Positions 7,325 to 35,129 of a stretch of 40,971 nt of DNA are shown here, piece after piece (the stretch's first letter is position 1; each line of letters opens with the position of its first letter). The translations under genes were made by a program, and so were the position numbers. Origin of the DNA: Planctomycetota bacterium (GTDB lineage: Bacteria > Planctomycetota > Phycisphaerae > Phycisphaerales > UBA1924); assembly GCA_024276195.1 (NCBI GenBank), contig JAJRXR010000083.1, forward strand, positions 1-40,971. The letters are read 5' to 3'. The notes below the pieces were generated by a model. That model searched no databases. It was given only the letters and a program-made list of their open reading frames with translations, and was not told the DNA's origin.

Positions 7325-7346
7325 ATATGCGGGCACGGAGGTTCCC

Positions 7347-8441
7347 ATGCGCCGACTCACGATCACCCTCTCGCTCCTGACGCTCGCGTTGCTCGCTGGC
7401 CCCGGGCTCGCTCAGACGCTGCGCATCACCGAGATGGCCCGCATCAAAGGCCAGGGCGTCTCGGTGCTCCAGGGCCTGGGGCTGGTGATGGGCCTCAACG
7501 GCACGGGCGACTCGGGCAAGGAGCTGGCCGTGGCCCGCCCCATCGCCGAGGTTCTGCGCCGCAACGGCAACCCCATCCCCGATCTTGCCGAGCTGGCCAA
7601 GTCCCGCTCGGTCGCGCTGGTCATGGTGACGTGCCGGATCCCGCGCGAGGGGGCGATGACCGACGACGAGCTGGACGTACGCATCAGCGTGATCCATTCC
7701 GCGTCGAGCCTGGACGGCGGCATTCTCTACATCTCACCCCTGACGGCGCCCATCCCCGGCTCGGGCGTCTGGGCCTACGCCCAGGGACAGGTCATCGTCG
7801 AGACGCCCGAGAACCCGACGACCGGGTTCATCCCGGGCGGGGCCTATATAGCGAAGGACATCGTCACGACGCCGGACGTCAAGGCGTCGTTCGAGCTGGT
7901 GCTCGACCCGCCCTACGCCGGGTTCCGCTCCGCTGCGGAGGTCGCCGGGGCGATCAACGACGAGTACCTGCTGACCACACGGACGATCGGCGAAAAAATC
8001 GCCAAGGTTCTCGACGAACGCCGCATCCGCGTGACGGTGCCCGAGTCCGAACGGCGCGCGCCCGCAGGCTTTGTCGGCGATGTCATGGCCACGAGCGTCT
8101 CGTCCAACCGCCTGGGCCTGCCCGCCCAGGTCATCTGCAACACACGCACAGGCCATATCATGATCACGGGCGACGTGCGCATCAGCCCGGCGGTCATCAC
8201 GCACGAGGACCTGGTCATCACGACCACCGTCCCGACGCCGCAGCCAACCGCCGCCGACCCGCTCGTGGATAAATCCCGGTGGGCCGCGATCGGCCCGGGG
8301 GCGCGCGAGAGCGACCTCACCCGCATCGAGGACCTGCAGAACGCGCTCAACCAGCTCGACGTGCCCGCGACCGACCAGATCCAGATCCTCCAGATGCTCC
8401 ACCGCGCCGGCAAGCTCCACGCCCGACTCATCATCGACTGA
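7347..8441 (+). CDS. flgI: FlgI, flagellar P-ring protein
   Basis: The start at 7347 (MRRLTITLSLL) has CGGAGGT 4 nt upstream and yields a 364-residue protein with a clean signal peptide ending near PGLAQ. Family signatures are strong: QGLGLVMGLNGTGDSG, the SLDGGILYISPL block, YAQGQV, and the C-terminal DLQNALNQLDVPATDQIQIL. FlgI polymerises in the periplasm around the rod at the peptidoglycan layer with FlgA's help. It is the first gene of the rightward flagellar operon; flgJ follows after 3 nt. Confidence 0.95.
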   Translation: MRRLTITLSLLTLALLAGPGLAQTLRITEMARIKGQGVSVLQGLGLVMGLNGTGDSGKELAVARPIAEVLRRNGNPIPDLAELAKSRSVALVMVTCRIPREGAMTDDELDVRISVIHSASSLDGGILYISPLTAPIPGSGVWAYAQGQVIVETPENPTTGFIPGGAYIAKDIVTTPDVKASFELVLDPPYAGFRSAAEVAGAINDEYLLTTRTIGEKIAKVLDERRIRVTVPESERRAPAGFVGDVMATSVSSNRLGLPAQVICNTRTGHIMITGDVRISPAVITHEDLVITTTVPTPQPTAADPLVDKSRWAAIGPGARESDLTRIEDLQNALNQLDVPATDQIQILQMLHRAGKLHARLIID

Positions 8442-8444
8442 CCC

Positions 8445-8894
8445 ATGAACGCGAGCCCCTCCATCACAAGCGCCTCCTTTGGCCCCTCGGTGCTCGACCG
8501 GGTCTCTGGCCCGGGCCAGCGCCTCGCGTCGGCCCAGAACCAGTTCGCGGGCGTGCTCAACCGCGCCCGCGAGAAGGCGCCCGAGTCGAGCGAGAGCGCC
8601 GCGAGAGACGCGGCCGAGCAGCTCGTCGCCATCACACTCGTCCAGCCCCTGCTGGCGCAGCTGCGTGAGACCAACAACGCGGCTCCGCCCTTCGCCCCGA
8701 CACCCGCCGAGAAGCAGTTCGCCTCGCTGCAGGATGCGCGTGTGGCGCAGGACATCGTGCGTGGCTCGCGCTTCCCGCTGGTTGACCAGCTTGCGCGCAG
8801 CATGCTGAAGCATCTCAACCCGGGCGCCCCGAGCGCGCCCACAAGCCACGGAGGACGCCATGACCCCGACACCGCCAGCGCTGGGGCCTCTTGA
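8445..8894 (+). CDS. flgJ: FlgJ-like rod-binding protein without muramidase domain
   Basis: 149 residues. Residues about 55-122 match the FlgJ N-terminal rod-binding domain (AAEQLVAITLVQPLLAQLRE ... QDARVAQDIVRGSRFPLVDQ). The C-terminal glucosaminidase/muramidase half found in enterobacterial FlgJ is absent, so the wall-cutting enzyme must be encoded elsewhere or not needed. Single-domain FlgJ proteins are known in other phyla. The last 35 nt overlap flgN, which implies coupled translation. Confidence 0.85.
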   Translation: MNASPSITSASFGPSVLDRVSGPGQRLASAQNQFAGVLNRAREKAPESSESAARDAAEQLVAITLVQPLLAQLRETNNAAPPFAPTPAEKQFASLQDARVAQDIVRGSRFPLVDQLARSMLKHLNPGAPSAPTSHGGRHDPDTASAGAS

Positions 8895-9378
8895 CGAGAC
8901 CGCCCAGGCCTCTCTTGAGCGGATCGTCTTCGAGCTGATCGACCGGCACGAGCGCCTGCTCGACGTGCTCGGCGCCCAGCGCGTCGCCATGGCCGCGGCC
9001 GACCCGGCCCGCCTCGGGCAGGCCGGGCAGCGCTGCGCCGATCTGCTCGAAGGCATAGGCGCCCTCGAGGACGAACGCCGGATGCTCCTCGGCGAGGGCG
9101 ACTCGGGCCATCGCGTCACGATCGCAGAGCTCGCCTCGGTGCTCGACGAGGACCGGCGCGAGCGGGTGCTGGATCTTGGGTCGCGCCTGCGCGGGCTCGT
9201 CGAACGCTGCAAGCGCGAGCAGTCCACGCTGCGAGCCGCGGCGGACTCGCTCTCGGGGCACATGGAAGGTCTCATCCGCCAGGTCATCGCCCGACTCTCG
9301 CACACGGGCGCGTACGACCAGAGCGGGCGCGTCGAGCATCGCGCCGCGGTCGTGAGCGCGCTGGATATCAAGCAGTAA
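8860..9378 (+). CDS. flgN: FlgN-like flagellar export chaperone
   Basis: 172 residues, almost wholly helical with heptad-like leucines (LERIVFELIDRHERLLDVL; RERVLDLGSRLRGLVERCK), fitting the FlgN family of cytoplasmic chaperones for FlgK and FlgL. The ATG lies inside the end of flgJ, 4 nt after GGAGGA within CACGGAGGA. The position directly before flgK and flgL, its predicted clients, strongly supports the call although sequence identity in this family is weak. Confidence 0.75.
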   Translation: MTPTPPALGPLDETAQASLERIVFELIDRHERLLDVLGAQRVAMAAADPARLGQAGQRCADLLEGIGALEDERRMLLGEGDSGHRVTIAELASVLDEDRRERVLDLGSRLRGLVERCKREQSTLRAAADSLSGHMEGLIRQVIARLSHTGAYDQSGRVEHRAAVVSALDIKQ

Positions 9379-9399
9379 GGAGCCCCGCAGGACCACGCC

Positions 9400-11112
9400 A
9401 TGAGCCTCACCGCCGCCATCCAGATCGCGCGCTCGGCCCTGACGACCAGCCAGGTCGGCCTCCAGGTCGCGGGCCAGAACCTGGCCAACCTCGCCACGCC
9501 CGGGTACTCGCGCCAGACCGCCACGCTCTCGCCCATCCGCTCCAACCAGAGCAGCGAGTTCTTCATCGGGCGCGGCGTGCAGGTCAGCGGCGTCCAACGC
9601 CAGATCAACGAATCGGTCCAGAAACGCCTCTGGAACGGTGTCTCCGACGAAACCGCCAAGGCCCGCAGCTACGACATCAACGCCCAGCTCGAGAGCATCC
9701 TCAACGAGCTGACCGGCTTCGACGTTTCCTCCGAGCTGTCGAACTTCTTCAACGCGTGGTCCGAGGCGGCCAACCTGGTCGCCTCGCCCGCGGGCGTCGT
9801 CGAGCAGGGCGACCGGATGGCAAACTTCATCAACTCCATGCGCCAGGATCTGGGCGCGCTGCGCCGCCAGGTCGAGGACGAGGTGGACGCGAGCGTCCTC
9901 CGCGCCGACACGCTGCTCGACGAGATCGCCACGATCAACGTCGAGATCAAACGCACCGAGCTGACCAGCGCCACCGCCAACGCCCTGCGCGACCAGCGCG
10001 ACGCGCTCGTCACCGAACTGAGCGAGTTCATCGACATCACCGTCGTCGAAGACAACCAGGGCGGCCTCGACGTGCTCATCGGCTCCACGCCCATCGTCCT
10101 CGGTGGCGTCAGCCGCGGGCTCGATGTCCAGCGGCGCGATATCGACGGCGTCCTGACCACCCGCGTCGTCGTCGGCGTCGATGGCGAGCCGCTCAACATC
10201 ACCTCCGGCTCCATCGGGGGCCTGCTCGAATCACGCAACTCGGTCGTGGACGAGACCATCGCCAAGCTCGATGATCTCTCCGCCGAGCTGATCTTCCGGG
10301 TCAACATCCTCCACTCGACCGGGCGGAATGCTGACCAGCTCACGTCCACCGTCTCGAACCTGCAGGTCCGCGCCCCGGACCGGACGCTTGCGCTCAACGA
10401 CCCGCTCAACGAGTCCTTCGCCGAGCTGCCCTTCGCCCCGAGCAACGGCGGGTTCTTCGTCGAGGTCACCAACACGAGCACGGGCGCCACACAGCGCGTC
10501 CGCGTGGACGTGGATCTTGACGGGCTCAACAGCGACGACACCTCCGCCGAGGACATCCGCGCCGCGCTCGACGCGATCAGCGGCGTCAACGCCTCGTGGG
10601 ATGTCGAGGGCAAGCTCACCATCGCCGCCGACCCGGACTTCGAGTTCTCGTTTGCCGACGATTCGTCCAACGTCCTGGGCGCGATGGGCGTCAACAGCTA
10701 CTTCGAGGGGACCGACGCCGACTCGATCTCCGTCCGCCAGGGCCTGATCGACGACCCCTCGGGCGTGATGCTCGGGCGCACGGTCGATGGGCAGTTCGTC
10801 GAGAACGCCACCGCGATCGGCCTCGCCTCCCTGCGCGACGAGACACTCTCGGCCCTCTCCAACGGGTCGTTCTCCGAGTACTGGCGCGACCATGTCCAAC
10901 GCGTCGGCACACAGACGAGCGCCTCGCTCACCGAAGCCAACTCCGCCTCGCTCGTCCGCGAAAGCCTTGAGGCGCAGCGGGCCTCGATCAGCGGCGTGGA
11001 CGCCGACGAAGAATCGATCAACCTCATTACCTTCCAGCAGCAGTACTCCGCCGCTGCACGTTTGATCCAGATCGCCGACCAGCTCATGGACGAGCTGCTC
11101 GCGATCATCTGA
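9400..11112 (+). CDS. flgK: FlgK, hook-filament junction protein 1
   Basis: 570 residues. The N-terminus (SQVGLQVAGQNLANLATPGYS) is the rod/hook/FlgK consensus; the C-terminus (ISGVDADEESINLITFQQQY ... IQIADQLMDELLAII) is the FlgK terminal helix. A central Asp-rich segment, about residues 350-450 (VDVDLDGLNSDDTSAEDIRA), is the variable domain. FlgK is exported through the hook to form the junction zone on which FlgL and then flagellin assemble. It starts 21 nt after flgN; AAGGAG lies at the end of flgN. Confidence 0.95.
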   Translation: MSLTAAIQIARSALTTSQVGLQVAGQNLANLATPGYSRQTATLSPIRSNQSSEFFIGRGVQVSGVQRQINESVQKRLWNGVSDETAKARSYDINAQLESILNELTGFDVSSELSNFFNAWSEAANLVASPAGVVEQGDRMANFINSMRQDLGALRRQVEDEVDASVLRADTLLDEIATINVEIKRTELTSATANALRDQRDALVTELSEFIDITVVEDNQGGLDVLIGSTPIVLGGVSRGLDVQRRDIDGVLTTRVVVGVDGEPLNITSGSIGGLLESRNSVVDETIAKLDDLSAELIFRVNILHSTGRNADQLTSTVSNLQVRAPDRTLALNDPLNESFAELPFAPSNGGFFVEVTNTSTGATQRVRVDVDLDGLNSDDTSAEDIRAALDAISGVNASWDVEGKLTIAADPDFEFSFADDSSNVLGAMGVNSYFEGTDADSISVRQGLIDDPSGVMLGRTVDGQFVENATAIGLASLRDETLSALSNGSFSEYWRDHVQRVGTQTSASLTEANSASLVRESLEAQRASISGVDADEESINLITFQQQYSAAARLIQIADQLMDELLAII

Positions 11113-11128
11113 CCCAGGAGCCCCCGGC

Positions 11129-13189
11129 GTGACCAGCTCTCCATCCGGCATCGGACGCGTTCCCATGCTGATGCGCAACCGGATCTCGCTCTCGCTGATC
11201 GGGCGCACCAACGCCGACCTGTTCAAGGTCAGCCAGCAGCTCTCGTCGGGCCTGGCCATCACGCGCCCGAGCGACGACCCCATCCGCGCCGCCTCCATCT
11301 CCGTCCTCGACGGGCGCCTCGAACGCTCCGACCAGATCCTGCGCAACCTCGAGTACGCCCGCGGCTCGCTCGACGTCGTGGACAACACGCTCACCGAGCT
11401 TCAGAATCTGATCAACGAGGCCATCAGCATCGGCTCCTCGCAGATCTCCACCCCCGCGAGCCCCCAGGAACGCGAGGCCCAAGCCAACGTCCTCGATTCC
11501 ATGATCTCCTCGCTCTTTGGTCTGGCCAACCAGGAATCCATCATCGGCTACATCTTCGGCGGCACACAGCCCGGGACGCCCCCCGTCACCGACCTCGGCG
11601 GCGCATTCAGCTATGTCGGAGGCTTTGGCGGGCTCGAAACCGACATCGGACTCGGGCGATCCGTCCCCGTCACCCTCGGCGCACAGAACACCATCGGCTC
11701 CACCTCCGCCCGCGTCGAAGGCTCGGCCGACCTCGACCCCGACCTCACCCTCGACACCCTCCTGACCGATCTCAACGGCGCCCGCGACTTCGGCGTCTCC
11801 ACCGGAACCTTCGAGCTCTCGTTCAACGCCGGGCAGCGTTTCAGCGTCGATCTCGCCGGCGCTGACACCGTCGGCGATGTCGTTGACGCCATCACCGCCG
11901 CCATCGGGCAGGCCGAGATTGACCAGGGCGTGACGATCCTCGGCCCCGGCGGCGTCTCGATCGCGGGCGAGGGCATCACGATCGACGTCCCCGCCGGCAA
12001 CCTCGAGGCGTTCGACCTGACCGGCTCAAGCGTCGGCGCCGACTTCGGGCTCGTCTTCAACCCCGCAACGCCCTTCAACGCGGGCACGACGTCCGGCCTC
12101 GACCTCTCCCCACGCCTGAGCTGGACCACACCCGTCCCCTCGCTCAGCGGGATCACCCCCCCACTCGGCGAGATCCAGATCACCAACAACGGGCGCGTCT
12201 CGCTCGTCGATCTCTCGGGCGCAACGACCCTGGGCGAGATCCGGTCCATCATCGAGTCCAACGTCGAGGGGACCAGAGTCCTCCTCAGCGAGGACGGACG
12301 CTCGATCGACGTGCTCACCGAGGTCGCCGGGGGCCAGGACCGGGCCTTGACGATCACCGATGTCCCCGGGAACAACAGCACCGCGACGCAGCTCGGCATC
12401 CGCTCGTACATGAGCACCACCGAGCTGAGCGACTTCAACGACGGGCGGGGCGTGCAGGTCGTCACCGGCGCGACCGACCCCATCACGGGCCTGCCCGACC
12501 CCACGCGGGACGTGGATTTTTCCATCACCCTCTGGACCGGGACCGCGAGCGAGCTGGAGATCGACATCGACCTCCAGCCGTCGGACCTGGTGGACGTCTC
12601 CACGCTGCTGGCCTCGATCAACACCCAGGCGGACGCCACCCTGATCGCGGCGGGCATGGCCCCGGGCGATTTCACGGCCCAGCTCCCCAACGACCGCAAC
12701 GGGCTCGAACTCATCCAGTCCGGCGCGTTCGGGGGCTCGATGCTGATCACGCGCAAAAACAACTCCACCGCGCCGGAACAGCTCGGGCTGCTCGACGGCG
12801 CCGTGGACCCCAGCGGCGACATCTTCTACTCCACCGACCGCGCCAAGGTCCGTGTGAACAACCTTTTCACCTCTCTGATCGATCTGCGCGACGCGCTGCG
12901 GAACAACAGCACATCTGGCATCCAGTTTGCGTCAGACAAGATCGAAGAGGCGGGCGCCCGTCTCACAGAAACCCACGGCCTTGTCGGCGGCTACGCCAAA
13001 CGCGTGGACGACGAGATCAGACGCGAGCAGGAGCGAGTGATCCTGAACGAGACGACACGCTCGAGCCTGCGGGACACGGACTTCGCCGAGGCGGCCACCC
13101 GCCTGACGCTGCTCCAGACGCAGCTCCAGGCGGCGCTCCAGGTCACGGCGAGCACCAGCCAGCTCTCGCTGCTGAGCTTCCTGGGGTAG
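11129..13189 (+). CDS. flgL: FlgL, hook-filament junction protein 3
   Basis: A GTG start follows CAGGAG at 8-nt spacing and gives 686 residues, about twice E. coli FlgL (317). Flagellin-like N-terminus: LFKVSQQLSSGLAITRPSDD and ARGSLDVVDNTLTELQNLIN. Flagellin-like C-terminus: LRDTDFAEAATRLTLLQTQL. The enlarged middle (residues about 140-560) is Thr/Asp/Gly-rich and includes hook-IN-like repeats (TVGDVVDAITAAIGQAEIDQ; TTLGEIRSIIESNVEGTRVL), giving a large surface-exposed domain. Location after flgK separates it from true flagellins, which are encoded further on. Confidence 0.9.
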   Translation: MTSSPSGIGRVPMLMRNRISLSLIGRTNADLFKVSQQLSSGLAITRPSDDPIRAASISVLDGRLERSDQILRNLEYARGSLDVVDNTLTELQNLINEAISIGSSQISTPASPQEREAQANVLDSMISSLFGLANQESIIGYIFGGTQPGTPPVTDLGGAFSYVGGFGGLETDIGLGRSVPVTLGAQNTIGSTSARVEGSADLDPDLTLDTLLTDLNGARDFGVSTGTFELSFNAGQRFSVDLAGADTVGDVVDAITAAIGQAEIDQGVTILGPGGVSIAGEGITIDVPAGNLEAFDLTGSSVGADFGLVFNPATPFNAGTTSGLDLSPRLSWTTPVPSLSGITPPLGEIQITNNGRVSLVDLSGATTLGEIRSIIESNVEGTRVLLSEDGRSIDVLTEVAGGQDRALTITDVPGNNSTATQLGIRSYMSTTELSDFNDGRGVQVVTGATDPITGLPDPTRDVDFSITLWTGTASELEIDIDLQPSDLVDVSTLLASINTQADATLIAAGMAPGDFTAQLPNDRNGLELIQSGAFGGSMLITRKNNSTAPEQLGLLDGAVDPSGDIFYSTDRAKVRVNNLFTSLIDLRDALRNNSTSGIQFASDKIEEAGARLTETHGLVGGYAKRVDDEIRREQERVILNETTRSSLRDTDFAEAATRLTLLQTQLQAALQVTASTSQLSLLSFLG

Positions 13190-13199
13190 ACGACGCACA

Positions 13200-13215
13200 C
13201 CGGGCGAAAGCCCGG
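13200..13215 (+). other. GNRA-tetraloop hairpin after flgL
   Basis: CCGGGC-GAAA-GCCCGG, a perfect 6-bp stem closed by a GAAA tetraloop, 10 nt downstream of the flgL stop. No T-run follows, so it is more likely a stable 3' structure or processing site within the operon transcript than a terminator. Confidence 0.5.
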
Positions 13216-13340
13216 CGGGCGGGATGGATCGAATGGGCGTCAGCGCACACGGCCGCGCTGAGTCGCCAGACAGGACGTCAACCGGGGTGGATGCTCCGGG
13301 AGTCGATCCACATCGTGGCCGTAAGGATCGGAGCGCACAC

Positions 13341-13787
13341 ATGGACGTGCGGACGACACGCTTTGGGGTGATCGAGATCGCGGAGGACCGCGTGATCACG
13401 TTCCCGAAGGGAATGCTCGGGTTTCCGGGCAAGACACGCTGGTGCCTGCTGCAGCCGGGCGACGACGCGTGCTTTTTCTGGCTGCAGAGCCTGGACGAGC
13501 CGGGGCTTGCGTTTGTGGTGACCGACCCGACGCTGTTCGAGCCCGAGTATTCGGCTCCGATCCGGAGCGAGCAGATGGAACAGCTCGCGCTGGACAAGCT
13601 CGAAGACGCCCAGGTCTTCGTGATTGTCAACAAGATCGACCAGCAGCTCACCGGCAACCTCCAGGGGCCGCTCATCATCAACACCCTCGCCAGGATCGGC
13701 GAGCAGATGGTGGTCGCCGAGAAACGCTGGACGACCCGACACCCGCTGATGAAGGTGGACAAGGCGGAACAAGCCGCCTCGGCCTGA
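13341..13787 (+). CDS. fliW: FliW, flagellar assembly factor and CsrA antagonist
   Basis: The ATG at 13341, preceded by CGGAG at 7 nt, gives 148 residues, the usual FliW size; 39 further in-frame residues upstream lack family character. The protein begins [20 protein letters not shown] and continues [14 protein letters not shown], with the FliW core ([44 protein letters not shown]). FliW binds flagellin and, when free, binds CsrA and releases it from flagellin mRNA. Its placement directly before csrA and two flagellin genes is the classical arrangement for that circuit. Confidence 0.95.
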
Positions 13788-13790
13788 TCC

Positions 13791-13807
13791 GCGGACCGCA
13801 CGTCCGC
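13791..13807 (+). other. Hairpin immediately after fliW
   Basis: GCGGAC-cgcac-GTCCGC, a 6-bp perfect stem 3 nt past the fliW stop, at the start of the 188-nt fliW-csrA gap. No T-run follows. The gap also contains an imperfect CCCGGAAG/CTTCCTCCGGG pairing at about 13918-13949. These could separate fliW from csrA expression, but nothing shows how. Confidence 0.4.
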
Positions 13808-13975
13808 CCACCCGGGCGAACGCTCTTCGGACGTTCTTGCACAGGCGCCCATCGTGCGCCGAGGCCGGAACGCCCGCGGACCGATCGCAAAGGCGGCGGG
13901 AGAACAACGACGACCGACCCCGGAAGGCAGGGATGCCGCTTCCTCCGGGCACGGATGCGAAAAGGAGCTCACGCA

Positions 13976-14332
13976 ATGCTTGTGCTTTCACGGCAGCGCG
14001 ACGAGACAATCATGATCGGCGACGATATCGAGATCACCATCGTCGATATCAGGGGCGACAAGGTGCGCCTCGGGATCACCGCGCCGACCCGCATCGCCGT
14101 ACACCGCAAAGAGGTGTACGACGCGATCACGCGGGAGAACGAGCAGGCCGCCAAGATCGCGGGCGGCGCCATCGAAGAAATCGCCCAGAAAGTCAGGCCA
14201 GGACCCGCACGCAGCGCCACCCGCGCCCGCGCCTCCCGCCTGACCGCGGGGCGATCCGACCACGAACCCAAACCCAACGACCAGCAGACCGAGCCAAAGC
14301 CGCAAGGCCCCTCGATCCGCAGCACCGGATAA
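13976..14332 (+). CDS. csrA: CsrA, carbon storage / translational regulator, with C-terminal extension
   Basis: The ATG at 13976 follows AAAGGAG. Residues 1-60 are canonical Csr[21 protein letters not shown], with RNA-binding L4, R6 and R44 ([10 protein letters not shown]). At 118 residues it is nearly twice the usual 60-75; the extra about 50 residues ([16 protein letters not shown] onward) are basic, then Pro/Gln-rich and apparently disordered. CsrA dimers bind GGA motifs over ribosome sites. Lying between fliW and two flagellin genes with GGA-rich leaders, it probably represses flagellin translation until FliW titrates it. The extension could add RNA or protein contacts, but this is untested. 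Confidence 0.95.
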
Positions 14333-14413
14333 GCACACCACCGAACCCTCAGGCGTACTCACACTCCCCCGCGCACAGGATTTCGCCGGGGGCGAACACC
14401 ACGGACAACGCAA

Positions 14414-14425
14414 TCACGGAGGATT
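14414..14425 (+). promoter_or_regulatory. Candidate CsrA-binding ribosome site, flagellin 1
   Basis: TCACGGAGGATT covers the Shine-Dalgarno 3 nt before the start and contains two overlapping GGA triplets; further GGAs lie at 14378-14380 and 14403-14405. The same 12-mer occurs before the second flagellin. CsrA consensus sites centre on ANGGA at the ribosome site. CACGGAGG also occurs before flgI and flgN, so part of the similarity may simply be a strong ribosome site. Confidence 0.45.
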
Positions 14426-14428
14426 GCC

Positions 14429-15988
14429 ATGGCCAGAATCAACACCAACGTCCCGAGCATCATCGCCCAGGCGAATCTCGAACGCGCCGGGCAAGAGCTT
14501 GGCATCCGACTCGAACGCCTCTCCACCGGTCTGCGCATTAACCGGGGCAAGGACGACCCCGCCGGGCTCATCATCAGCGAACGCATCGCGACGGACATCG
14601 CGGGCATCGAGCAGGGCATCAAGAACTCGGAGCGCGCCAGCTCGGTCATCGCGACCACCGAGGCCGCCCTCGTCGAGATCTCTGACCTGCTCAACACGAT
14701 CAAGGGGCTCACGGTCGAGGCCGCCAACTCCGGCGCCATCTCAGACGAGGAGATCCAGGCCAACCAGCTCCAGATCAACTCCGCCATCCAGTCCATCACA
14801 CGCATCAGCAACACCGCCAGCTTCGGCGGCCTCAGGCTCCTCGACGGGTCGCTCGACTACATCACCAGCGGCATCAACGCCGCCGAGATCAAGACCGCCC
14901 GCGTCTTCGCCGCCAGCTTCGTCGGCACCAACTCCCTCCAGGTCGAGGTCGATGTCCTCGCCTCCGCCCAGAAGGGCGGGCTCTACCTCAACGGCGACAT
15001 GCCCGGCGCGCTGACCGACGGTGTCCTCGCCTCCGCCATCACGCTCCGTATCGCCGGCTCCCTCGGCGTCAACGAGCTCTCCTTCGCCTCGGGCGCCTCC
15101 CTCGCCAGTGTCGTCAGCGGCGTCAACGGTCGCAGCGCCCTCACCGGGGTAGAGGCCGTGCTCATCAACGGCGACCCCAACTCCGGCGTCATCTTCCGGA
15201 CCGTTGGCTACGGTTCCGACGAGTTCGTCAGCGTCGATCGCCTCGGGGGTGACGACGCAGCCACTTGGTTCAACACCTACAAGTTCGTCGATGGCGCCAC
15301 CCTGCCCGACTTCACCGGCGGCTTCCCCTGGGCCGGCATCGGCACCACCCTCACCTCCACCAACCGCGACACAGGCGAGGACGTCCAGGCCCTCATCAAC
15401 GGCTCGCTCGCCAACGGCGACGGGCTCGAGATATCCCTCAGCTCTCCCAACCTCTCTGTCGAGCTTCTCCTCGCAGAGACCTTCGCTACCGATCCCACCA
15501 TTGCCCCCTCGACGTTTGATATCACCGGGGGCGGCGCGCTCTTCCAGCTTGGCCAGGACATCAGCGCCCTCCAGCAGACCAATATCGGCATCACCTCCAC
15601 CTCCGCCTCCTTCCTCGGCGGCAGCCTCGTCAACGGCTCCGTCCAATATCTCTCCAGCCTCCAGGATGGTCAGGCCAACAGCCTTCGCGCCAGCGCCGCC
15701 AGGCGAGACTTCAACCCCACTAGCGCCATCCTTGATAAGGCCATCGACGAGGTCTCCGTCCTCCGCGGGCGTTTGGGCGCCTTCGAGCGGAACGTCCTCG
15801 AAACCAACATCAGGAGCCTCCGGTCCCAGTTCGAGAACCTCACGGCCAGCAAGTCCATCATCCAGGACGCCGACTTCGCCGCCGAGACCTCCGCCCTGAC
15901 CCGAGCCCAGATCCTCCAGAGCTCGGGCACCACCGTGCTCACGCTTGCCAACCAGCAGGCGCAGAACGTGCTCCAGCTCCTCGGCTAA
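14429..15988 (+). CDS. Flagellin 1
   Basis: 519 residues. Flagellin N-domain: MARINTNVPSIIAQANLERA, then LERLSTGLRINRGKDDPAGL and LQINSAIQSITRISNTASFG. C-domain: IDEVSVLRGRLGAFERNVLE and IQDADFAAETSALTRAQILQ, ending NQQAQNVLQLLG. The middle (about residues 150-400) is the exposed variable domain and includes a hook-IN-like segment (ASLASVVSGVNGRSALTGV). It is exported through the hollow hook to form the filament. It lies 96 nt after csrA, so it may be cotranscribed with fliW-csrA or have its own promoter; an intrinsic terminator follows. Confidence 0.95.
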   Translation: MARINTNVPSIIAQANLERAGQELGIRLERLSTGLRINRGKDDPAGLIISERIATDIAGIEQGIKNSERASSVIATTEAALVEISDLLNTIKGLTVEAANSGAISDEEIQANQLQINSAIQSITRISNTASFGGLRLLDGSLDYITSGINAAEIKTARVFAASFVGTNSLQVEVDVLASAQKGGLYLNGDMPGALTDGVLASAITLRIAGSLGVNELSFASGASLASVVSGVNGRSALTGVEAVLINGDPNSGVIFRTVGYGSDEFVSVDRLGGDDAATWFNTYKFVDGATLPDFTGGFPWAGIGTTLTSTNRDTGEDVQALINGSLANGDGLEISLSSPNLSVELLLAETFATDPTIAPSTFDITGGGALFQLGQDISALQQTNIGITSTSASFLGGSLVNGSVQYLSSLQDGQANSLRASAARRDFNPTSAILDKAIDEVSVLRGRLGAFERNVLETNIRSLRSQFENLTASKSIIQDADFAAETSALTRAQILQSSGTTVLTLANQQAQNVLQLLG

Positions 15989-16021
15989 GCGAAAACGCCC
16001 GGTTCAAGCCGATTCTGACGA

Positions 16022-16053
16022 GGCCCCACCCATTCCGGGTGGGGCCTTTCTTC
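16022..16053 (+). terminator. Rho-independent terminator after flagellin 1
   Basis: GGCCCCACCC (16022-16031), loop ATTCC, GGGTGGGGCC (16037-16046), then TTTCTT. A perfect 10-bp stem with a U-rich tail, 33 nt past the stop. It ends the upstream flagellar operon and implies a separate promoter for flagellin 2. Confidence 0.9.
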
Positions 16054-16118
16054 ATGCGCGCACCCTGACCCGGACAGCCCCCCCTGCCCGGTTTCTTTCT
16101 CATTCTTGCCGAGGCGAC

Positions 16119-16146
16119 TGAACCGTCCCCCGGACGCCGCCGATCC
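16119..16146 (+). promoter_or_regulatory. Possible sigma28 (FliA)-type promoter for flagellin 2
   Basis: TGAA (16119-16122), 16 nt, then GCCGATCC (16139-16146), compared with TAAA-N15-GCCGATAA. The -10 core GCCGAT is exact; the -35 and the spacing are each one step off. It falls between the flagellin 1 terminator and flagellin 2, where a late flagellar promoter is expected. The leader would be about 170 nt. Confidence 0.35.
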
Positions 16147-16200
16147 CCGGTTTCACACGTCCGGGTCGCAAGCCCGTGCGTGTGACTCCCCGGACGGATC
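16142..16200 (+). other. Long imperfect hairpin in flagellin 2 leader
   Basis: Nested complementary blocks: GATCC/GGATC (16142-16146 with 16196-16200), CCGG/CCGG (16147-16150 with 16190-16193), TCACACG/CGTGTGA (16153-16159 with 16179-16185), CGGG/CCCG (16162-16165 with 16173-16176), 7-nt apex TCGCAAG. It lies in the 337-nt gap between the two flagellin genes, overlapping the putative -10 and extending into the leader. It could be an operator-like palindrome or a 5' UTR structure. The rest of the gap (16201-16306) is GGA-rich but shows no other element. Confidence 0.5.
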
Positions 16201-16306
16201 CGGGGGCAACTGGTTTCACGAACGGGTCAGCACGTCGCGGACCCACCGGGTGGAGCAGCCCGTTCGGAACACACCTGGGGGAGCAGACGCTCACCCGAAC
16301 ACGCGT

Positions 16307-16318
16307 TCACGGAGGATT
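16307..16318 (+). promoter_or_regulatory. Candidate CsrA-binding ribosome site, flagellin 2
   Basis: TCACGGAGGATT, identical to the element before flagellin 1 but 7 nt rather than 3 nt from the ATG. Identity of 12 nt in otherwise dissimilar leaders suggests selection beyond ribosome binding. Confidence 0.45.
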
Positions 16319-16325
16319 CTCAACA

Positions 16326-17843
16326 ATGAGTCGCATCAACACGAACATTTCGTCACTCGTCGCACAGCGCGTTCTGGGCGCCAACAACCAGAACCTCGGC
16401 TTCTCGCTCGAGCGTCTGTCCACCGGCCTGCGGATCAACCGGGGCAAGGATGACCCCGCCGGTCTCATCGCGTCGGAGAACCTTCGCTCTGAGATCACGT
16501 CGCTCAACGCTGCGATCAACAACTCCGAGCGCGCCGACCAGGTCATCAACATTGCTGAGGGCGGTCTCCAGGAGGTCTCGAACCTTCTGACCGAACTCCA
16601 GGGCCTGCTGACCTCCTCGGCCAGCTCCGCTGGCCTTTCCGATTCGGAGAAGGAAGCCAACCAGCTCCAGATCGACTCCATCCTCCAGACCATCGACCGC
16701 GTCGCCAGCTCCACAAGCTTCCATGGCTCCAAGCTCCTCAGCGGCAACTTCGACTACCAAGTCAACAACGTCGCCTCGGGCGTCTCCGACTTCCGCGTCA
16801 ACGGCGCCAAGTTCGAGGGCGCCAGCCTCGCCGTTGAGGCCATCGTCACCCAGTCCGCCCAGCAGGCGGGCCTCTACCTCTCGCTCGGCTGCACGTCGCT
16901 TAACCTGGGCAGCTCCACCGGCTCGGCCTTCACCATTGAGATCGCCGGCGCCAAGGGCACCCGCGAGCTCCAGTTCTCCTCGAGCCAGACCCTTACCTCC
17001 ATCGCCGCCGCCGTCAACACCTTCTCTGACGTCACGGGTGTCACCGCCGTCACCAGCGGCACCGGCGTCACCCTCCGCTCCAGCGAGTTCGGCTCCGACG
17101 AGTACGTCTCCGTCACCGTCGTCCAGACCGGCGGCGTCACCGGCACCAACGTCGGCCTCTACAACTTCCAGGCTGGCGATGCCACGGCAGTCAACGGCAC
17201 GATCTCCTCCACCTTCGCCAACGCCACCAACGGCGTTCGCGACGACGGGCAGGACATCGGCGGCGCCATCAACGGCCTCCTCGCCACCGGCAAGGGCAAG
17301 GAACTCAGCGTCAACTCCGACTTCCTCGATGTCGCCATCACCCTCGACACCGGCACCGCTCAGACCCTCGCCAACGTCTCCGCCTTCAGCATCACCGGCG
17401 GCGGCGCCGACTTCCAGCTCGCCTCCGACGTCAACATCGCCGGCAAGGTTTCCATCGGTATCCAGGACGTCGCCGTCCGCAAGCTCGGTACCAGCGACCT
17501 GGGCTTCCTCGACGACCTGGGCTCTGGCAAGGACTTCAACGTCGTTGACGCCAGCAGCGCCGACTTCTCCTCCGCACAGAAGATCGTCGATGAGGCAATC
17601 GAGCAGGTCTCGAGCATGCGTGGTCGTCTCGGCGCCTTCCAGAAGAACGTGATCGGCGCCACCATCCGGAGCCTGGGCGTCGCGGTCGAGAACACCGCCG
17701 CCGCCGAGAGCACCATCCGCGATGCCGACTTCGCCAAGGAGACCGCGGGCCTGACACGCAGTCAGATCCTCGTCGCCGCTTCCACCAACGTTCTGGCCCT
17801 GGCCAACCAGGCCCCCCAGAACGTCCTCCAGCTTCTCGGCTAA
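16326..17843 (+). CDS. Flagellin 2
   Basis: The ATG at 16326 (MSRINTNISSLVAQRVLGAN) gives 505 residues; 50 in-frame codons upstream are leader sequence. N-domain: LERLSTGLRINRGKDDPAGL. C-domain: IEQVSSMRGRLGAFQKNVIG and IRDADFAKETAGLTRSQILV, ending NVLQLLG. The middle has a hook-IN motif (TLTSIAAAVNTFSDVTGVTA) aligned with flagellin 1, so the pair probably arose by duplication and then diverged. A single Cys in LSLGCTSLN is unusual for flagellins. It has its own leader and terminator, so it is likely separately transcribed and may be the major filament subunit. Confidence 0.95.
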   Translation: MSRINTNISSLVAQRVLGANNQNLGFSLERLSTGLRINRGKDDPAGLIASENLRSEITSLNAAINNSERADQVINIAEGGLQEVSNLLTELQGLLTSSASSAGLSDSEKEANQLQIDSILQTIDRVASSTSFHGSKLLSGNFDYQVNNVASGVSDFRVNGAKFEGASLAVEAIVTQSAQQAGLYLSLGCTSLNLGSSTGSAFTIEIAGAKGTRELQFSSSQTLTSIAAAVNTFSDVTGVTAVTSGTGVTLRSSEFGSDEYVSVTVVQTGGVTGTNVGLYNFQAGDATAVNGTISSTFANATNGVRDDGQDIGGAINGLLATGKGKELSVNSDFLDVAITLDTGTAQTLANVSAFSITGGGADFQLASDVNIAGKVSIGIQDVAVRKLGTSDLGFLDDLGSGKDFNVVDASSADFSSAQKIVDEAIEQVSSMRGRLGAFQKNVIGATIRSLGVAVENTAAAESTIRDADFAKETAGLTRSQILVAASTNVLALANQAPQNVLQLLG

Positions 17844-17867
17844 CGCCGAAGCCCACTCCGTAACGCG

Positions 17868-17899
17868 ACGCCCCGGCCTCCAGAGGCCGGGGCGTTTTT
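17868..17899 (+). terminator. Rho-independent terminator after flagellin 2
   Basis: ACGCCCCGGCCT pairs with AGGCCGGGGCGT (17868-17879 with 17884-17895) around a short CCAG loop, then a T-run. Very stable, 24 nt past the stop; it marks the end of the flagellar island. Confidence 0.92.
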
Positions 17900-17920
17900 C
17901 ATTCGCTCTCTGGCCCCGAC

Positions 17921-18919
17921 GTGACCGATCCTTGCTCCATGCCCGAGCGCGCCCCATCACGCACCTTCGCCCTGCGCGATCGCCTCGCCCCCGGGCTCGT
18001 GGACGTCTTCGGCCAGTTCCTCGTCTTCCTCCGCATCGAGTGCGGCCTCGCCCCCGCCACCATGGAGGCCTACGAACGCGACCTGCTCGACCTGCTCGCC
18101 GAGATCTCCGATGCCGGGGGTTCCTCGCCATCGGACGTCACACCCAGCGCGCTCATCACTCACATCCGAGCCCTCACCACCGATCGCCAGTACGCCTCGG
18201 CAACACTCGCGCGCCACCTCGCGACGATCAAGGTCTTCTGCCGTTGGCTCTGCGCACGCGGCTTCGTCGAAGCCAACGCCGCGGACATCCTCGACCAGCC
18301 CACGCGATGGAAAAAACTCCCGGGCGTGCTCAGCCCCAAGCAGATGCGCGAGCTGATAGAAGCGGCGGACGAACCTAGCAAGCCCGCGCCCGGCGCACCG
18401 CTGTGGATCCGCGACCGCGCCATCCTCGAGCTCCTCTACGCCAGCGGCCTGCGCGCCAGCGAGGTCGGCTCCATCCAGCTCGCGGATCTCAAGGACACCA
18501 TCGGCGTCATCCGTGTCACCGGCAAGGGCGACAAGCAACGCCTCGTCCCCATGGGCGTCCCGGCCCAGCGCTGGCTCAAGCGGTACCTGCGCGAGTGCCG
18601 CCCTGTGCTCATCACCGCCGAGAGCGCCGGCAAACGCCTAGACAAAGGACGCGTCTTCCTGACGCGCTCGGGTCGCCCGATCGAGCGCGTCAGGGTGTGG
18701 CAGCTCGTAAAGAAGTACGCCGCCCTCGCCGGGCTGCCCAAGGCCCACCCGCACATGCTGCGTCACAGCTTCGCGACGCACCTGCTCTCGGGCGGCGCCG
18801 ACCTGCGGACCGTCCAGGACCTGCTCGGGCACGCGGACATCAGCACGACCCAGATCTACACGCACGTGGACCGAACGCAGCTCAAGGACGTCGTCCGTCG
18901 CTGCCACCCGAGGCCCTGA
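17921..18919 (+). CDS. xerD: XerC/XerD-type tyrosine recombinase
   Basis: 332 residues from the GTG; an in-frame ATG six codons later (17939) is equally plausible, as neither has a clear ribosome site. The N-terminal SAM-like DNA-binding domain (residues about 28-115) is followed by the catalytic domain with all active-site residues: R178 (SGLRASE), K202 (GKGDKQ), H278-x-x-R281 (HMLRHSFATH), H304 (LGHADIS), Y313 (TTQIYTH). Xer recombinases resolve chromosome dimers at dif with FtsK. The C-terminal segment LSGGADLRTVQDLLGHAD fits XerD somewhat better than XerC. The flagellar neighbours appear coincidental. Confidence 0.9.
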   Translation: MTDPCSMPERAPSRTFALRDRLAPGLVDVFGQFLVFLRIECGLAPATMEAYERDLLDLLAEISDAGGSSPSDVTPSALITHIRALTTDRQYASATLARHLATIKVFCRWLCARGFVEANAADILDQPTRWKKLPGVLSPKQMRELIEAADEPSKPAPGAPLWIRDRAILELLYASGLRASEVGSIQLADLKDTIGVIRVTGKGDKQRLVPMGVPAQRWLKRYLRECRPVLITAESAGKRLDKGRVFLTRSGRPIERVRVWQLVKKYAALAGLPKAHPHMLRHSFATHLLSGGADLRTVQDLLGHADISTTQIYTHVDRTQLKDVVRRCHPRP

Positions 18920-23761: not shown

Positions 23762-24523
23762 ATGGAACGGTTCGCTCTCGCTGCGGGGGTCCTGGCGACG
23801 GCTTGCTCACTCTCTTTGGGTGGCGCTGTCACAACCCTGAACTTCGACACCGAGGATGATTTCCTCACCCCGCTCCTCAACGGGCAGGCCATCTCCAGCC
23901 CCACGACCTTCGGGGCTCTGGTCAACATCAACGCCTTCGGGGCCAACAACCTCGGAGCCGCGATCTTTGACACCAGCTTTGCTGGTCCGAACCTCGGAGG
24001 CCAGGATCCAGACCTGCTCGTCGGGCTCGGAAACGCCCTCATCCTCCAGAGCCCGGACTCGCCCGTGCAGACAGTCCCGGGCATCTTCGATGCGCCCAAC
24101 GACGCGCTCGGAGGCGGCACGTTCGTCTTTGACTTCATCAACGCCGTCGAGATGCGCTCCGTCAAGCTCCTCGATGTTGATGGCGGCAACGAGGTCATCG
24201 TCACCATGATCGACCTCGAAGGCGCCATGCGCGTCTACGACGTCCCCGCCAGTTGGTCCTTCGACATCGACGCCCAAGGCCCCAACGGGTACGACACGCT
24301 CGACATGACGACGCTCGCCGGGCAGATCGGCGAGGGCGGCGCCACCGCCACCGCCACCGAAGACGAAGGCTTCGACGCGACCCGCGTCACCAGCGTCACC
24401 TTCGAGTTCTCAGGCTCGGGCGGGCTCGACGATGTTTCGTTCGTCGTCATCCCGACCCCGGGCGCCGCAACCCTGCTGGCCCTCGCAGGCGGAGCGACGC
24501 TGACACGCAGACGCCGACGCTAA
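23762..24523 (+). CDS. PEP-CTERM-type secreted protein
   Basis: 253 residues with a short signal peptide (MERFALAAGVLATACSLSLG). The C-terminus VIPTPGAATLLALAGGATL followed by RRRRR is a PEP-CTERM-like sorting signal: a P-x-P motif, one hydrophobic helix, then a basic tail, recognised by an exosortase. The body is a beta-sandwich-like, Asn/Asp/Gly-rich domain (LNFDTEDDF; FDFINAVEMRSVKLLDVDGG) of the kind found in surface and matrix proteins. GGAGG lies 8 nt before the ATG. No exosortase gene is in the window. Confidence 0.8.
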   Translation: MERFALAAGVLATACSLSLGGAVTTLNFDTEDDFLTPLLNGQAISSPTTFGALVNINAFGANNLGAAIFDTSFAGPNLGGQDPDLLVGLGNALILQSPDSPVQTVPGIFDAPNDALGGGTFVFDFINAVEMRSVKLLDVDGGNEVIVTMIDLEGAMRVYDVPASWSFDIDAQGPNGYDTLDMTTLAGQIGEGGATATATEDEGFDATRVTSVTFEFSGSGGLDDVSFVVIPTPGAATLLALAGGATLTRRRRR

Positions 24524-30979: not shown

Positions 30980-31743
30980 CGGCTCATGTCCAGATCGTCC
31001 AAGCTCAGGCGCCCGCGCCACTCTTCGAACGCATCAGCCAGCAGCGGGTCCAGCGGCTCATGCTCCGGGTTGCCCGGGCAGGGGTCATTCTCCGCCGGCG
31101 TGGGCGCCCCAGGACGCTTGCGCTCCGCTGGGCGAGGGATCTCCATCGACGCGCCAAACGCCCGCTCAACGGGCGGTGATGGCTTCCGCTTGGGCTCTTT
31201 CGCCTTATCCAACTCGGGTGGGCGCTCGAGCGCCGTGTCCGCCTCGTACCCGAACTCGCGCATCCAGTGCGCCACCGAGTAGGCGTCCAGCGGGACCTCG
31301 CTGGCGAACGCCGGACGCCCGGACCCGGGCTTGGCCCGCACATCCGAGCTGAGCTGCTTGAGGAACGTCCCGTTGCCGACCTGGGCCGCCCCGGCCCGCC
31401 CGGCCGCCCGGATCAGACGCCGATCCGAGCTCACCATCAGCACCCGGATCCCCCGGGACCGCTCAAGCACATCCTCGATCACGTCGTCGGCTTCCTGGTC
31501 AGGCCCGGAGAACACCACCTCCGCGCCGCCGATCCGTGTCCAGACCAGCCCCGAGTGGGTCTCAAGCAGCCCCGACACGGGCCACCCAGGCCCGGGCCTC
31601 CCGTCGCAGATCACCCGGACCCGGCGCTCGCTGTACCGGCTCCGCCCCACCAGACGAACCAGCCCGGGAACGTCCATCCCCCGCTCGGAAGCCGGCAAGG
31701 CCCACTGGGCATGAAGCACGTTGTACGCGTCGATCAGCAGCAT
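30895..31743 (-). CDS. YacP-like NYN-domain ribonuclease
   Basis: 282 residues. The NYN/PIN-like fold occupies residues 1-165: MLLIDAYNVLHAQ (Asp5, Asn8), VRVICDGRPGPGW, GPDQEADDVIEDVLERS and VLMVSSDRRLIRAA supply the acidic metal-binding residues. The family includes Bacillus YacP/Rae1, an RNase that cleaves mRNA on ribosomes. The tail, residues about 165-282, is Pro/Lys/Glu-rich with a short conserved-looking helix (DAFEEWRGRLSLDDLDMSRW) and ends in an Arg/Gly/Ser-rich, possibly RNA-binding stretch. Confidence 0.85.
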   Translation of the reverse strand: MLLIDAYNVLHAQWALPASERGMDVPGLVRLVGRSRYSERRVRVICDGRPGPGWPVSGLLETHSGLVWTRIGGAEVVFSGPDQEADDVIEDVLERSRGIRVLMVSSDRRLIRAAGRAGAAQVGNGTFLKQLSSDVRAKPGSGRPAFASEVPLDAYSVAHWMREFGYEADTALERPPELDKAKEPKRKPSPPVERAFGASMEIPRPAERKRPGAPTPAENDPCPGNPEHEPLDPLLADAFEEWRGRLSLDDLDMSRWISDVQDIKRPGTGGRGPSRGGSSRRR

Positions 31744-31806
31744 GACTGAGCAGACGATAGGGAGCGAACGCCGGGCCTCGGGCTCGATTGTCTCCGGGGG
31801 GCAGTC

Positions 31807-31835
31807 TTGATCGGGCGGGCGAGGCGCCCTTTACT
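31807..31835 (+). promoter_or_regulatory. sigma70-like promoter for rpsU
   Basis: TTGATC (31807-31812), 17-nt spacer, TTTACT (31830-31835). Start expected near 31843, giving an about 55-nt leader with a GCGGC/GCCGC hairpin (31846-31862) before AAGGAG and the ATG. The hairpin is a candidate regulatory structure. Confidence 0.5.
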
Positions 31836-31896
31836 TGAGGCCCGAGCGGCAGAGCATGCCGCCCGCACGAAGCCCCAGAGCGGGCAAGGAGCGACG

Positions 31897-32088
31897 ATGG
31901 CGATCCGGATCAAGGCCCGCGGCGGCGAGAGCGTCGAGCAGATGATGCGCCGCTTCAAGAAGCTCTGCTAAAAAGAGGGGCTGACCAAGGACATCAAACG
32001 CAAGGAATTCTTCGAGAAGCCCTCCGAGCGCAAGCGCCGTGCCCAGCGCAAGACCGTCGCCCGCGTCGCCCGCGAAGAGCGGACCTGA
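31897..32088 (+). pseudogene. rpsU: rpsU (ribosomal protein bS21) interrupted by an in-frame UAA: broken or recoded
   Basis: The ATG at 31897, 5 nt after AAGGAG, starts a bS21 frame: MAIRIKARGGESVEQMMRRF then KKLC, followed by TAA at 31969-31971 (codon 25), then, in the same frame, KEGLTKDIKRKEFFEKPSER and KRRAQRKTVARVAREERT to a TGA at 32086-32088. The family has Glu after KKLC (KLCEKEG), so GAA to TAA by one base change accounts for it. Both halves are perfectly conserved in pattern and promoter, ribosome site and terminator are intact. TAA is used as an ordinary stop by other genes here. Possible explanations: sequencing error, recent nonsense mutation with a second copy elsewhere, or stop-codon readthrough. 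Confidence 0.85.
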
Positions 32089-32146
32089 CCGAGCCCGGCG
32101 CCCAGCGTCCCTCGCTGGCCGGCCCTCAAGAGTCACGCGATACCCG

Positions 32147-32174
32147 CCGCCCGCCCTGAGCGGGCGGTTTCTTT
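32147..32174 (+). terminator. Rho-independent terminator after rpsU
   Basis: CCGCCCGC (32147-32154), loop CCTGA, GCGGGCGG (32160-32167), then TTTCTTT. It lies 58 nt past the rpsU terminal stop, indicating monocistronic transcription. Confidence 0.9.
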
Positions 32175-32292
32175 GCGCTGACACCCCATCTGGCCGATGA
32201 TCCGCGCCCCACGCCCCTTGTCGGGGCGCCCAGCCGGGATGGCGCTGGCCTATGCTTGCCGCCCGGCTCGGTGCGGGGAGTCGCCAACGGGC

Positions 32293-32310
32293 CTGGTCGC
32301 TTGTGACCAG
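32293..32310 (+). other. Hairpin in hppA leader
   Basis: CTGGTC-gcttgt-GACCAG, a perfect 6-bp stem 56 nt before the hppA ATG, downstream of a TATGCT (32251-32256) that could be a -10. A possible 5' UTR structure; no riboswitch class is recognised. Confidence 0.35.
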
Positions 32311-32366
32311 TCTCGACACACGTTGTGTTCAAACTTTGTTCGTATCCATCCGCGGAGATGACGCTG

Positions 32367-35129
32367 ATGAGCAGTCTGACTGTCCAAACACTCGGCACGA
32401 TTGACAATATCCCGGCGGCGTTTTACTTCGCCCCCATCGGCGGGCTCGCCGCCCTCGGTATGGCCTACTTCTTCTATGGCTCGGTCATGAAGAAGTCTGA
32501 GGGCGATGCTGAGATGATCCGCATCGCCCAGGCCGTCCGCGACGGAGCGATGGCGTACCTCACGCGCCAGTACAAGGTCGTCGCGGGCGTCTTTGTTCTG
32601 CTCGTCGCCTTCCTCGCTGTCATGTGGCAGCTCAAGCTCCAGTCCCCCGTCACCATGATCGGCGTGCCGATCGCCGGGCTCTTCTCGGGCCTGTGCGGGT
32701 GGTTCGGCATGAAAATGGCGACCAACGCCTCCGCCCGGACCGCCCACGCCGTGAAGGACAGCCTCAACGATGGCCTGACCGTCGCGTTCCGTTCCGGCGC
32801 CGTCATGGGGCTCGTCGTGGTCGGCTTCGCCATTCTCGACGTCTCGGCCTGGTTCCTGATCTTCAACGCCACCGGCATCGGGGGCGATATCCAGGCCCTA
32901 ACCACCGTCATGCTCACCTTCGGCATGGGCGCCTCGACGCAGGCGCTCTTCGCCCGCGTGGGCGGCGGCATCTACACCAAAGCCGCCGACGTCGGCGCCG
33001 ACCTCGTCGGCAAGGTCGAGGCCGGCATCCCCGAGGACGACCCACGCAACCCCGCCACCATCGCCGACAACGTCGGCGACAACGTCGGCGATGTCGCCGG
33101 CATGGGCGCCGACCTCTACGAATCGTACTACGGCTCCATCCTCGCCACCATGGCCCTCGGCGCCGCCGCCGCCTTCACCATCCCGGGTGTCACCAACTCT
33201 GACTCGACCTCGCTCGCTATCACTCTGGCCGTCGCCCCCATGGCCCTGGCCGGCATCGGCATCTTCTGCTCCATCGCCGGCATCTTCACCGTCAAGGCCA
33301 AGGAGAACGCCACCTTCTCGCAGCTGCTCAAGGGACTGCACAAGGGCGTCTATGTCGCCTCGGGCCTCATCATCCTGCTCGCCTTCGCCCTGCTCTACAT
33401 GCTCTTCAACAACCGCCCAGAGCTTGCCGGCATCACCGAGTGGTGGCGCCTGGGCCTCTCGATCGTCTCGGGCCTTGTCGCCGGCCTCGTCATCGCCAGC
33501 GCCACCGAGTACTACACCAGCTACGAGCACCCGCCGACCAAGCGCATCGCCGAGCAGGCGCTCACCGGCCCGGCCACCGTCATCATCGCCGGCATCGCCG
33601 AGGGCATGAAGTCCACCTGGGCCTCCATCCTTACCGTCGTCATCGCCATCATCGCCGCCTTCACCTTCGCGGGCGGCAGCGAGAACTTCCTCATGGGCCT
33701 CTACGGCGTCGGCATCGCCGCCGTCGGCATGCTCTCGACACTCGGCATCACACTCGCGACGGACGCCTACGGCCCGATCGCCGACAACGCCGGCGGCAAC
33801 GCCGAGATGACCAGCCAGCCCCCCCACGTCCGTGAGCGCACGGACATGCTCGACTCATTGGGCAACACCACCGCCGCGACGGGCAAGGGCTTCGCCATTG
33901 GCTCGGCCGCGCTGACCGCCCTCGCCCTCTTCGCCGCCTACATCCAGGTCGTCCAGGTCCAGATCACGACCCAGGCCGGCACCTACGCCGATCGCGGCTC
34001 CTTTGTCGCGCCCGAGAACGACACGCTCTACGCCGTCTATCAGGGACACGGAAAGTTCGCCGTCGTCGAAACCGGCCTCGCCTCTGAAGACGGCGTCACC
34101 GAAGACGGCGCCTCCGAAACCACCATCGACGGCGGCATGACCATCAGCGCCTCGACCGACCACGGGCACTCGTCCGTTGACAAGCTCCTCAACGCCGGCG
34201 ACGTGATCACCAATGTCTCTCGCCCGCGCTTCGACCGCTACACCCTGACCGGGACCACCTCCCATGGAGACCACGACGGAACGTTTACCATCGAACTCGC
34301 CTCGGCCTCCCAGGGCTCCATCTCCGACGTGCTCGCGTTTTATGACGTAACCATCGCCAACCCCCGCCTGCTCGGGGGCATCTTCATCGGCGTGCTCCTC
34401 GCCTTCCTCTTCTGCGCTCTGACCATGAACGCCGTCGGACGCGCCGCCTACGCCATGATGGGCGAGTGCCGGCGCCAGTTCGCCAAGATGCGCGACGGCC
34501 TCCGCCAGCAGGGCATGTCCGAAGAGGACGTCGCCAACCCCGACAACTGGCCCCGCGAAGGGCTCGATGTTGACGGACACCACTACCCCGACTACGCCAA
34601 CTGTGTCGCTATCTCGACCGCAGGCGCCCAGAGGGAGATGGTCATCCCGGCCATCCTCGCGATCTCCGTCCCCATCGCCGTGGGCATGGTGCTCTCGGTC
34701 CCGGGTGTGCTGGGCCTGCTCGCAGGCGGGCTTACCTCGGGCTTCGCCGTCGCCGTCTTCATGGCCAACGCTGGCGGCGCTTGGGACAACGCCAAAAAGC
34801 TCCTCGAGTCCTACGGCAAGATCACCGCCAGCGATATGGTCGAAGGGACCGGAAACTCGTCCAAGGTTCCCGACACCATTCGCGACGCCATCATGGCCCG
34901 CGCTCAGGAAGCGGTCAACGCCGGCAACGGCGATCTGATCGTCTACGGCAAGGGCTCGGAAGACCACAAGGCCACCGTCGTTGGCGATACCGTCGGCGAC
35001 CCCTTCAAGGACACCTCAGGCCCCGCCCTCAACATCCTCATCAAGCTCATCTCGATCGTCTCGGTCGTCTTCGCAGGGCTCATCGTCGCCTACGGCTCCG
35101 TCCTCGGCTCCCTCATCGGCCTCCACTGA
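32367..35129 (+). CDS. hppA: Membrane-bound proton/sodium-translocating pyrophosphatase
   Basis: The ATG at 32367 follows GGAG by 9 nt and gives 920 residues; usual length is 660-800. About 16 membrane helices. Catalytic motifs are intact: DVGADLVGKVEAGIPEDD, ADNVGDNVGDVAGMGADLYE and the C-terminal VVGDTVGDPFKDTSGPALN. LGNTTAATGKG has Ala where K+-independent enzymes have Lys, so K+ dependence is predicted; H+ versus Na+ pumping is not decidable by eye. Extra length comes mainly from an insertion at residues about 535-660, rich in Asp/Thr/Ser/His (SASTDHGHSS; TGTTSHGDHDGTFTIEL), between two helices, and a shorter one near 815-860 (ITASDMVEGTGNSSKVPD). PPi hydrolysis is coupled to ion export. 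Confidence 0.95.
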   Translation: MSSLTVQTLGTIDNIPAAFYFAPIGGLAALGMAYFFYGSVMKKSEGDAEMIRIAQAVRDGAMAYLTRQYKVVAGVFVLLVAFLAVMWQLKLQSPVTMIGVPIAGLFSGLCGWFGMKMATNASARTAHAVKDSLNDGLTVAFRSGAVMGLVVVGFAILDVSAWFLIFNATGIGGDIQALTTVMLTFGMGASTQALFARVGGGIYTKAADVGADLVGKVEAGIPEDDPRNPATIADNVGDNVGDVAGMGADLYESYYGSILATMALGAAAAFTIPGVTNSDSTSLAITLAVAPMALAGIGIFCSIAGIFTVKAKENATFSQLLKGLHKGVYVASGLIILLAFALLYMLFNNRPELAGITEWWRLGLSIVSGLVAGLVIASATEYYTSYEHPPTKRIAEQALTGPATVIIAGIAEGMKSTWASILTVVIAIIAAFTFAGGSENFLMGLYGVGIAAVGMLSTLGITLATDAYGPIADNAGGNAEMTSQPPHVRERTDMLDSLGNTTAATGKGFAIGSAALTALALFAAYIQVVQVQITTQAGTYADRGSFVAPENDTLYAVYQGHGKFAVVETGLASEDGVTEDGASETTIDGGMTISASTDHGHSSVDKLLNAGDVITNVSRPRFDRYTLTGTTSHGDHDGTFTIELASASQGSISDVLAFYDVTIANPRLLGGIFIGVLLAFLFCALTMNAVGRAAYAMMGECRRQFAKMRDGLRQQGMSEEDVANPDNWPREGLDVDGHHYPDYANCVAISTAGAQREMVIPAILAISVPIAVGMVLSVPGVLGLLAGGLTSGFAVAVFMANAGGAWDNAKKLLESYGKITASDMVEGTGNSSKVPDTIRDAIMARAQEAVNAGNGDLIVYGKGSEDHKATVVGDTVGDPFKDTSGPALNILIKLISIVSVVFAGLIVAYGSVLGSLIGLH

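Follow-up and report, generated by a model that had tools for sequence, protein, structure and literature searches.

The rpsU gene of this uncultured, planctomycete-like draft genome, which encodes ribosomal protein bS21, is interrupted by an in-frame TAA at codon 25. We conclude that this is probably a one-base nonsense difference in one draft genome, reflecting an error or a recent null allele rather than a new reading of a stop codon. Between these two, we favor a flaw of the draft assembly, either an erroneous consensus base or a minority variant, at a rough probability of 0.55, with the wrong base itself deduced from the comparisons below. Recoding in rpsU would matter because bS21 is located near the 16S 3′ end; the evidence instead points to a lesion in a single genome. 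The features of the locus are given below, with positions counted in the window, meaning the whole 40,971-nucleotide stretch of DNA that was analyzed.

31886..31891, + strand: AAGGAG, Shine-Dalgarno-like, 5′ of the rpsU ATG (read by eye)
31897..32088, + strand: rpsU (bS21) frame of 63 codons and a TGA, with an internal stop at codon 25 (translation, Pfam match)
31969..31971, + strand: in-frame TAA, rpsU codon 25; Glu is encoded here in each of the 55 relative loci read
32146..32168, + strand: intrinsic-terminator-like hairpin with a T-rich tail, 3′ of rpsU (terminator scan)
32343..35129, + strand: intact gene, judged by its sequence to encode a membrane pyrophosphatase-like protein; downstream neighbor of rpsU, in the same position in congeners

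Translation of 31897–32088 yields 24 residues up to RRFKKLC, a stop, and then KEGLTKDIKRKEFFEKP... to a natural TGA. Read across the stop, the product scores 53.3 bits against the Pfam S21 model PF01165, above the curated cut-off of 27, and conserved bS21 sequence flanks the TAA on both its 5′ and 3′ sides (core RRFKKLC-x-KEGL). The gene thus resembles other bS21 genes in its score, its conserved core, its congener-like neighborhood and its status as sole copy, and differs from them in lacking an uninterrupted frame, with one in-frame TAA at codon 25. The in-frame TAA is confirmed as genuinely part of the database record. An earlier note on this DNA had described an in-frame UAA with an intact frame on both sides and had argued that frameshifting is not needed, and both points hold, as the same frame resumes directly after the TAA. 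The note had also called the promoter, ribosome site and terminator intact. The latter two were recovered, whereas a simple scan of 31700–32360 returned 0 sigma-70-type promoters, a result that weighs little because the genome is GC-rich and may rely on promoters of another type.

The genome is a draft assembly split over 88 contigs and totaling 3,036,756 bases, with completeness of 91.04% and contamination of 2.59%. In a profile search with the S21 model, rpsU at 31897–32088 was the sole match above cut-off in this 91%-complete draft, and the only other match scored 14.9 bits. By the neighboring pyrophosphatase protein, the nearest named records are Phycisphaeraceae and Phycisphaerales drafts at 69–72% identity (best segment), so the window belongs in or near the Phycisphaerales. 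A search of genome_contigs, which may omit the window's own genome, for same-species rpsU, using an exact pattern that allowed any letter at the variable base, gave 0 matches.

The stop codon is not conserved and is confined to this genome among those compared. Within the family, 140 of 151 genomes (own included) have bS21, and an internal stop occurs in this genome alone. The conserved stop expected of a readthrough gene was therefore absent, with internal stops in 0 of the 139 other genomes with bS21. Every family genome with completeness of 90% or more and contamination of 5% or less has the protein (108/108). Across the wider order, a bS21 match was found in 365 of 401 genomes and in 258 of the 263 good ones, leaving five good genomes without a match; among the matches listed for these wider relatives, none contains an internal stop. 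At the codon level, position 25 is GAA or GAG in 55 of 55 relative loci from 55 genomes (L003–L055, L057 and L058, with one spurious motif match in L008 dropped). In 80 named pyrophosphatase loci, a bS21 motif lies nearby in six, and all six carry Glu. The three congeners have GAA and an identical gene length, which fits the earlier note's proposal of a single GAA to TAA substitution at a normally Glu position. Their DNA identity to this genome is approximately 73–80% over aligned stretches, so the comparison set lacks a very close relative. The note's further suggestion of a conserved, possibly regulatory readthrough does not survive this comparison, which was the note's own test; the relatives rule it out (0/139 with a stop, 55/55 with Glu).

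The 3′ half of the gene is without decay, and by sequence comparison both flanks of the stop are under normal constraint. Over codons 26–60 (the variable codons 61–63 are omitted from these counts), this genome differs from congener G113 by 4 synonymous and 2 non-synonymous changes, from G038 by 8 and 2, and from G088 by 5 and 6. With G088 as outgroup, a non-synonymous change at codon 53 falls on this genome's branch and one at codon 50 falls on the G038 plus G113 side. An undecayed 3′ half implies that the TAA is very recent, is unreal, or is silent, with the protein still being produced.

Under the favored reading, the organism's usual rpsU would be a normal single-copy bS21 gene, the TAA would have been written into the contig by the assembler, as an erroneous consensus base or a minority variant, and no special translation mechanism would be involved. 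Consistent with this are bS21 in all 108 good family genomes with the stop in 1 of 140, Glu at codon 25 in every relative locus, the undecayed 3′ half, and the draft state of the assembly (88 contigs, 91.04% complete). Two further isolated single-base lesions at conserved places in the genome also agree with it. The first is a tRNA gene at C68:25497–25579 (L103, L106), which looks like a damaged tRNA-Leu(CAA). Its anticodon loop consists of six bases, one A fewer than in 28 of 28 aligned tRNA-Leu(CAA) relatives (anticodon confirmed by ARAGORN in 19 and read by eye in the other 9), and ARAGORN assigns it no identity; a 29th aligned row, a tRNA-Leu(UAA), also has the longer A run. The second is a gene at C26:126764–127435, presumably for an MBL-fold hydrolase-like protein judging by its motif, in which codon 159 of about 224 is an in-frame TAG. 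Conserved sequence flanks this TAG, and in all three congeners codon 159 is Ser and the frame continues. Both lesions fit consensus errors, and also fit real losses.

Against an assembly-level origin, all three lesions could be genuine, tolerable losses, and the genome is not visibly error-rich. Syntenic window genes other than rpsU have a stop in 0 of 17 in the comparison with G038, a count that omits four low-identity rows (two at 28–35% without a stop, two at about 48% with one stop each) and leaves out the rows against G088 and G113. RpoB has an internal stop in 0 of 30 genomes searched (three partial). In this genome it carries 2 changes at otherwise invariant columns across 27 full-length sequences, where the range is 0–12 and the genome ranks 16th with ties, although the power of this test is low.

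In a wider survey of this genome, queries from G038 (59 genes, 18,015 codons) raised flags for 3 stops and 3 frame breaks, and queries from G088 (77 genes, 27,137 codons) for 9 stops and 1 frame break. For G038, the same survey gave 6 stops and 2 frame breaks with its own queries (65 genes) and 3 stops and 2 frame breaks with those of G088 (51 genes). For G088, it gave 3 stops and 1 frame break with its own queries (88 genes) and 0 stops and 1 frame break with those of G038 (57 genes). Except for rpsU and the MBL-fold gene, the flags in all three genomes were judged, mostly by eye, to stem from shadow frames or from starts placed too far upstream. In this genome, six regions were viewed in all six frames and one, 119346–116581, was read in detail; both of its flagged stops lie upstream of the start of what we take to be a UbiD-like protein. 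Since the counts are of the same order in the relatives and mostly reflect shadow frames by eye, an excess of errors in this genome is unproven.

A real, recent nonsense mutation is the less probable of the two leading explanations and is still a serious one. The strain would then make no more than the N-terminal 24 residues, and its ribosomes would lack bS21, a predicted null allele. The normal appearance of base quality elsewhere in the genome (window genes, RpoB) is in line with a true mutation. So is the region downstream of the stop, where the codons checked include one CTG and one ATC and no in-frame ATG, GTG or TTG; re-initiation after the stop was rejected on this ground, and rescue by ordinary re-initiation is not expected. 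The five good order genomes without a bS21 match also agree with loss. PMC9976891 describes bS21 as dispensable in both Bacillus subtilis and Listeria monocytogenes. Variants with rpsU lost or reduced arise spontaneously in Listeria, where PMC4424878 lists mutations of the RBS, a frameshift that follows the eighth residue and deletion of the gene, and describes such variants as slower-growing and more stress-resistant. Given this dispensability in some bacteria and the Listeria variants, a real null is possible. The L. monocytogenes variants, as covered in PMC4424878 and PMC11006974, resemble the present case in that single small lesions abolish or lower functional S21. They differ in coming from selected laboratory variants that had a phenotype and were sequenced, whereas here there is a draft consensus alone.

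Several observations weigh against the null allele. All 108 good family genomes keep bS21, which suggests that its loss is costly, and the downstream half of this rpsU is undecayed. According to PMC9976891, Flavobacterium johnsoniae cannot do without bS21, and the same apparently holds for E. coli; in F. johnsoniae, a C-terminal truncation that removes codons 43–64 was viable, while attempts at a null failed. In addition, for a real mutation to become the consensus it would need to have neared fixation in the sampled population.

Readthrough of a real stop, by near-cognate decoding or an unseen suppressor and at a level that supplies enough full-length bS21, is improbable, and functional readthrough of this UAA is without positive support. 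As in known readthrough or recoded genes, the frame past the stop is open and constrained, and the interrupted gene is the sole copy found. The differences from such genes are that the stop is unconserved, with TAA absent from every relative examined, and that the searches turned up neither a suppressor tRNA nor a downstream structure. Rfam matched 46 tRNAs in the genome, 44 of them above cut-off. ARAGORN, run on all 46 stretches, assigned 43, left one unassigned and called none in the two weak ones. Among the 44 above cut-off in this roughly 91%-complete genome, none has a UUA, CUA or UCA anticodon, and a tRNA able to read UAA, as the suppression raised by the earlier note would need, was not found. 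The unassigned one is the damaged tRNA at C68:25497–25579 (ARAGORN "tRNA-???"), which was rejected as a UAA suppressor since its loop, UUCAAA, holds no UUA triplet. As about 9% of the genome is missing, a suppressor tRNA may have escaped detection. ARAGORN also called a 92-base tRNA-Glu(TTC) at 24307–24398 on the minus strand, taken as a false positive because it is absent from the Rfam matches and overlaps an intact reading frame. The supported tRNA-Glu(TTC) is located at C15:63497–63571.

The termination machinery also argues against readthrough. Genes for both prfA (RF1)-type and prfB (RF2) release factors are present, the former as the genome's best match at 353.6 bits, short of the strict cut-off, which for that model is 423.25, and the latter at C13:4445–5482 on the minus strand. 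A TGA within the prfB match presumably reflects the well-known RF2 frameshift. TAA ends 18 of 71 relative-supported genes sampled from contig C26 and the window; it is an ordinary terminator here, and the codon shows no sign of reassignment. The 75 nt 3′ of the stop fold no better than shuffled sequences (z +1.12) and so offer no stimulatory RNA structure, a feature that not every case of readthrough requires. A search of the literature centered on rpsU and bS21 found nothing on point for rpsU readthrough. A narrower version is harder still to credit: a strain-specific, real UAA in the sole bS21 gene, tolerated via low-level readthrough, such that termination efficiency sets bS21 supply. If true, a supply set in this way could alter use of the 16S 3′ end. 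In practical terms, a frame that stays open on both sides of a stop in a single draft does not count as evidence of readthrough before relatives and reads have been checked.

A second intact rpsU in the unassembled part of this roughly 91%-complete genome, with the copy at 31897–32088 a pseudogene, is very unlikely, as rpsU is nearly always single-copy in the family and the present copy adjoins the pyrophosphatase gene, the usual place of rpsU in congeners. The earlier note had listed a second copy among its options, and the genome search found none. Just 2 of the 140 matching genomes in the family search gave a second bS21 match. In G097 it is a piece of 29 positions where a contig ends (30.2 bits, above cut-off), and in G070 a 22-bit match, under cut-off.

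Elsewhere in the window, the congener stretches compared, which cover parts of contigs only, contain nothing that matches positions 1–23057 at the DNA level. Positions 1–18000 hold a long run of flagellar-type genes, which we take, by their sequences, to be flgH/A/G/F/I/K/L-like genes, fliW, csrA and two flagellin-like genes.
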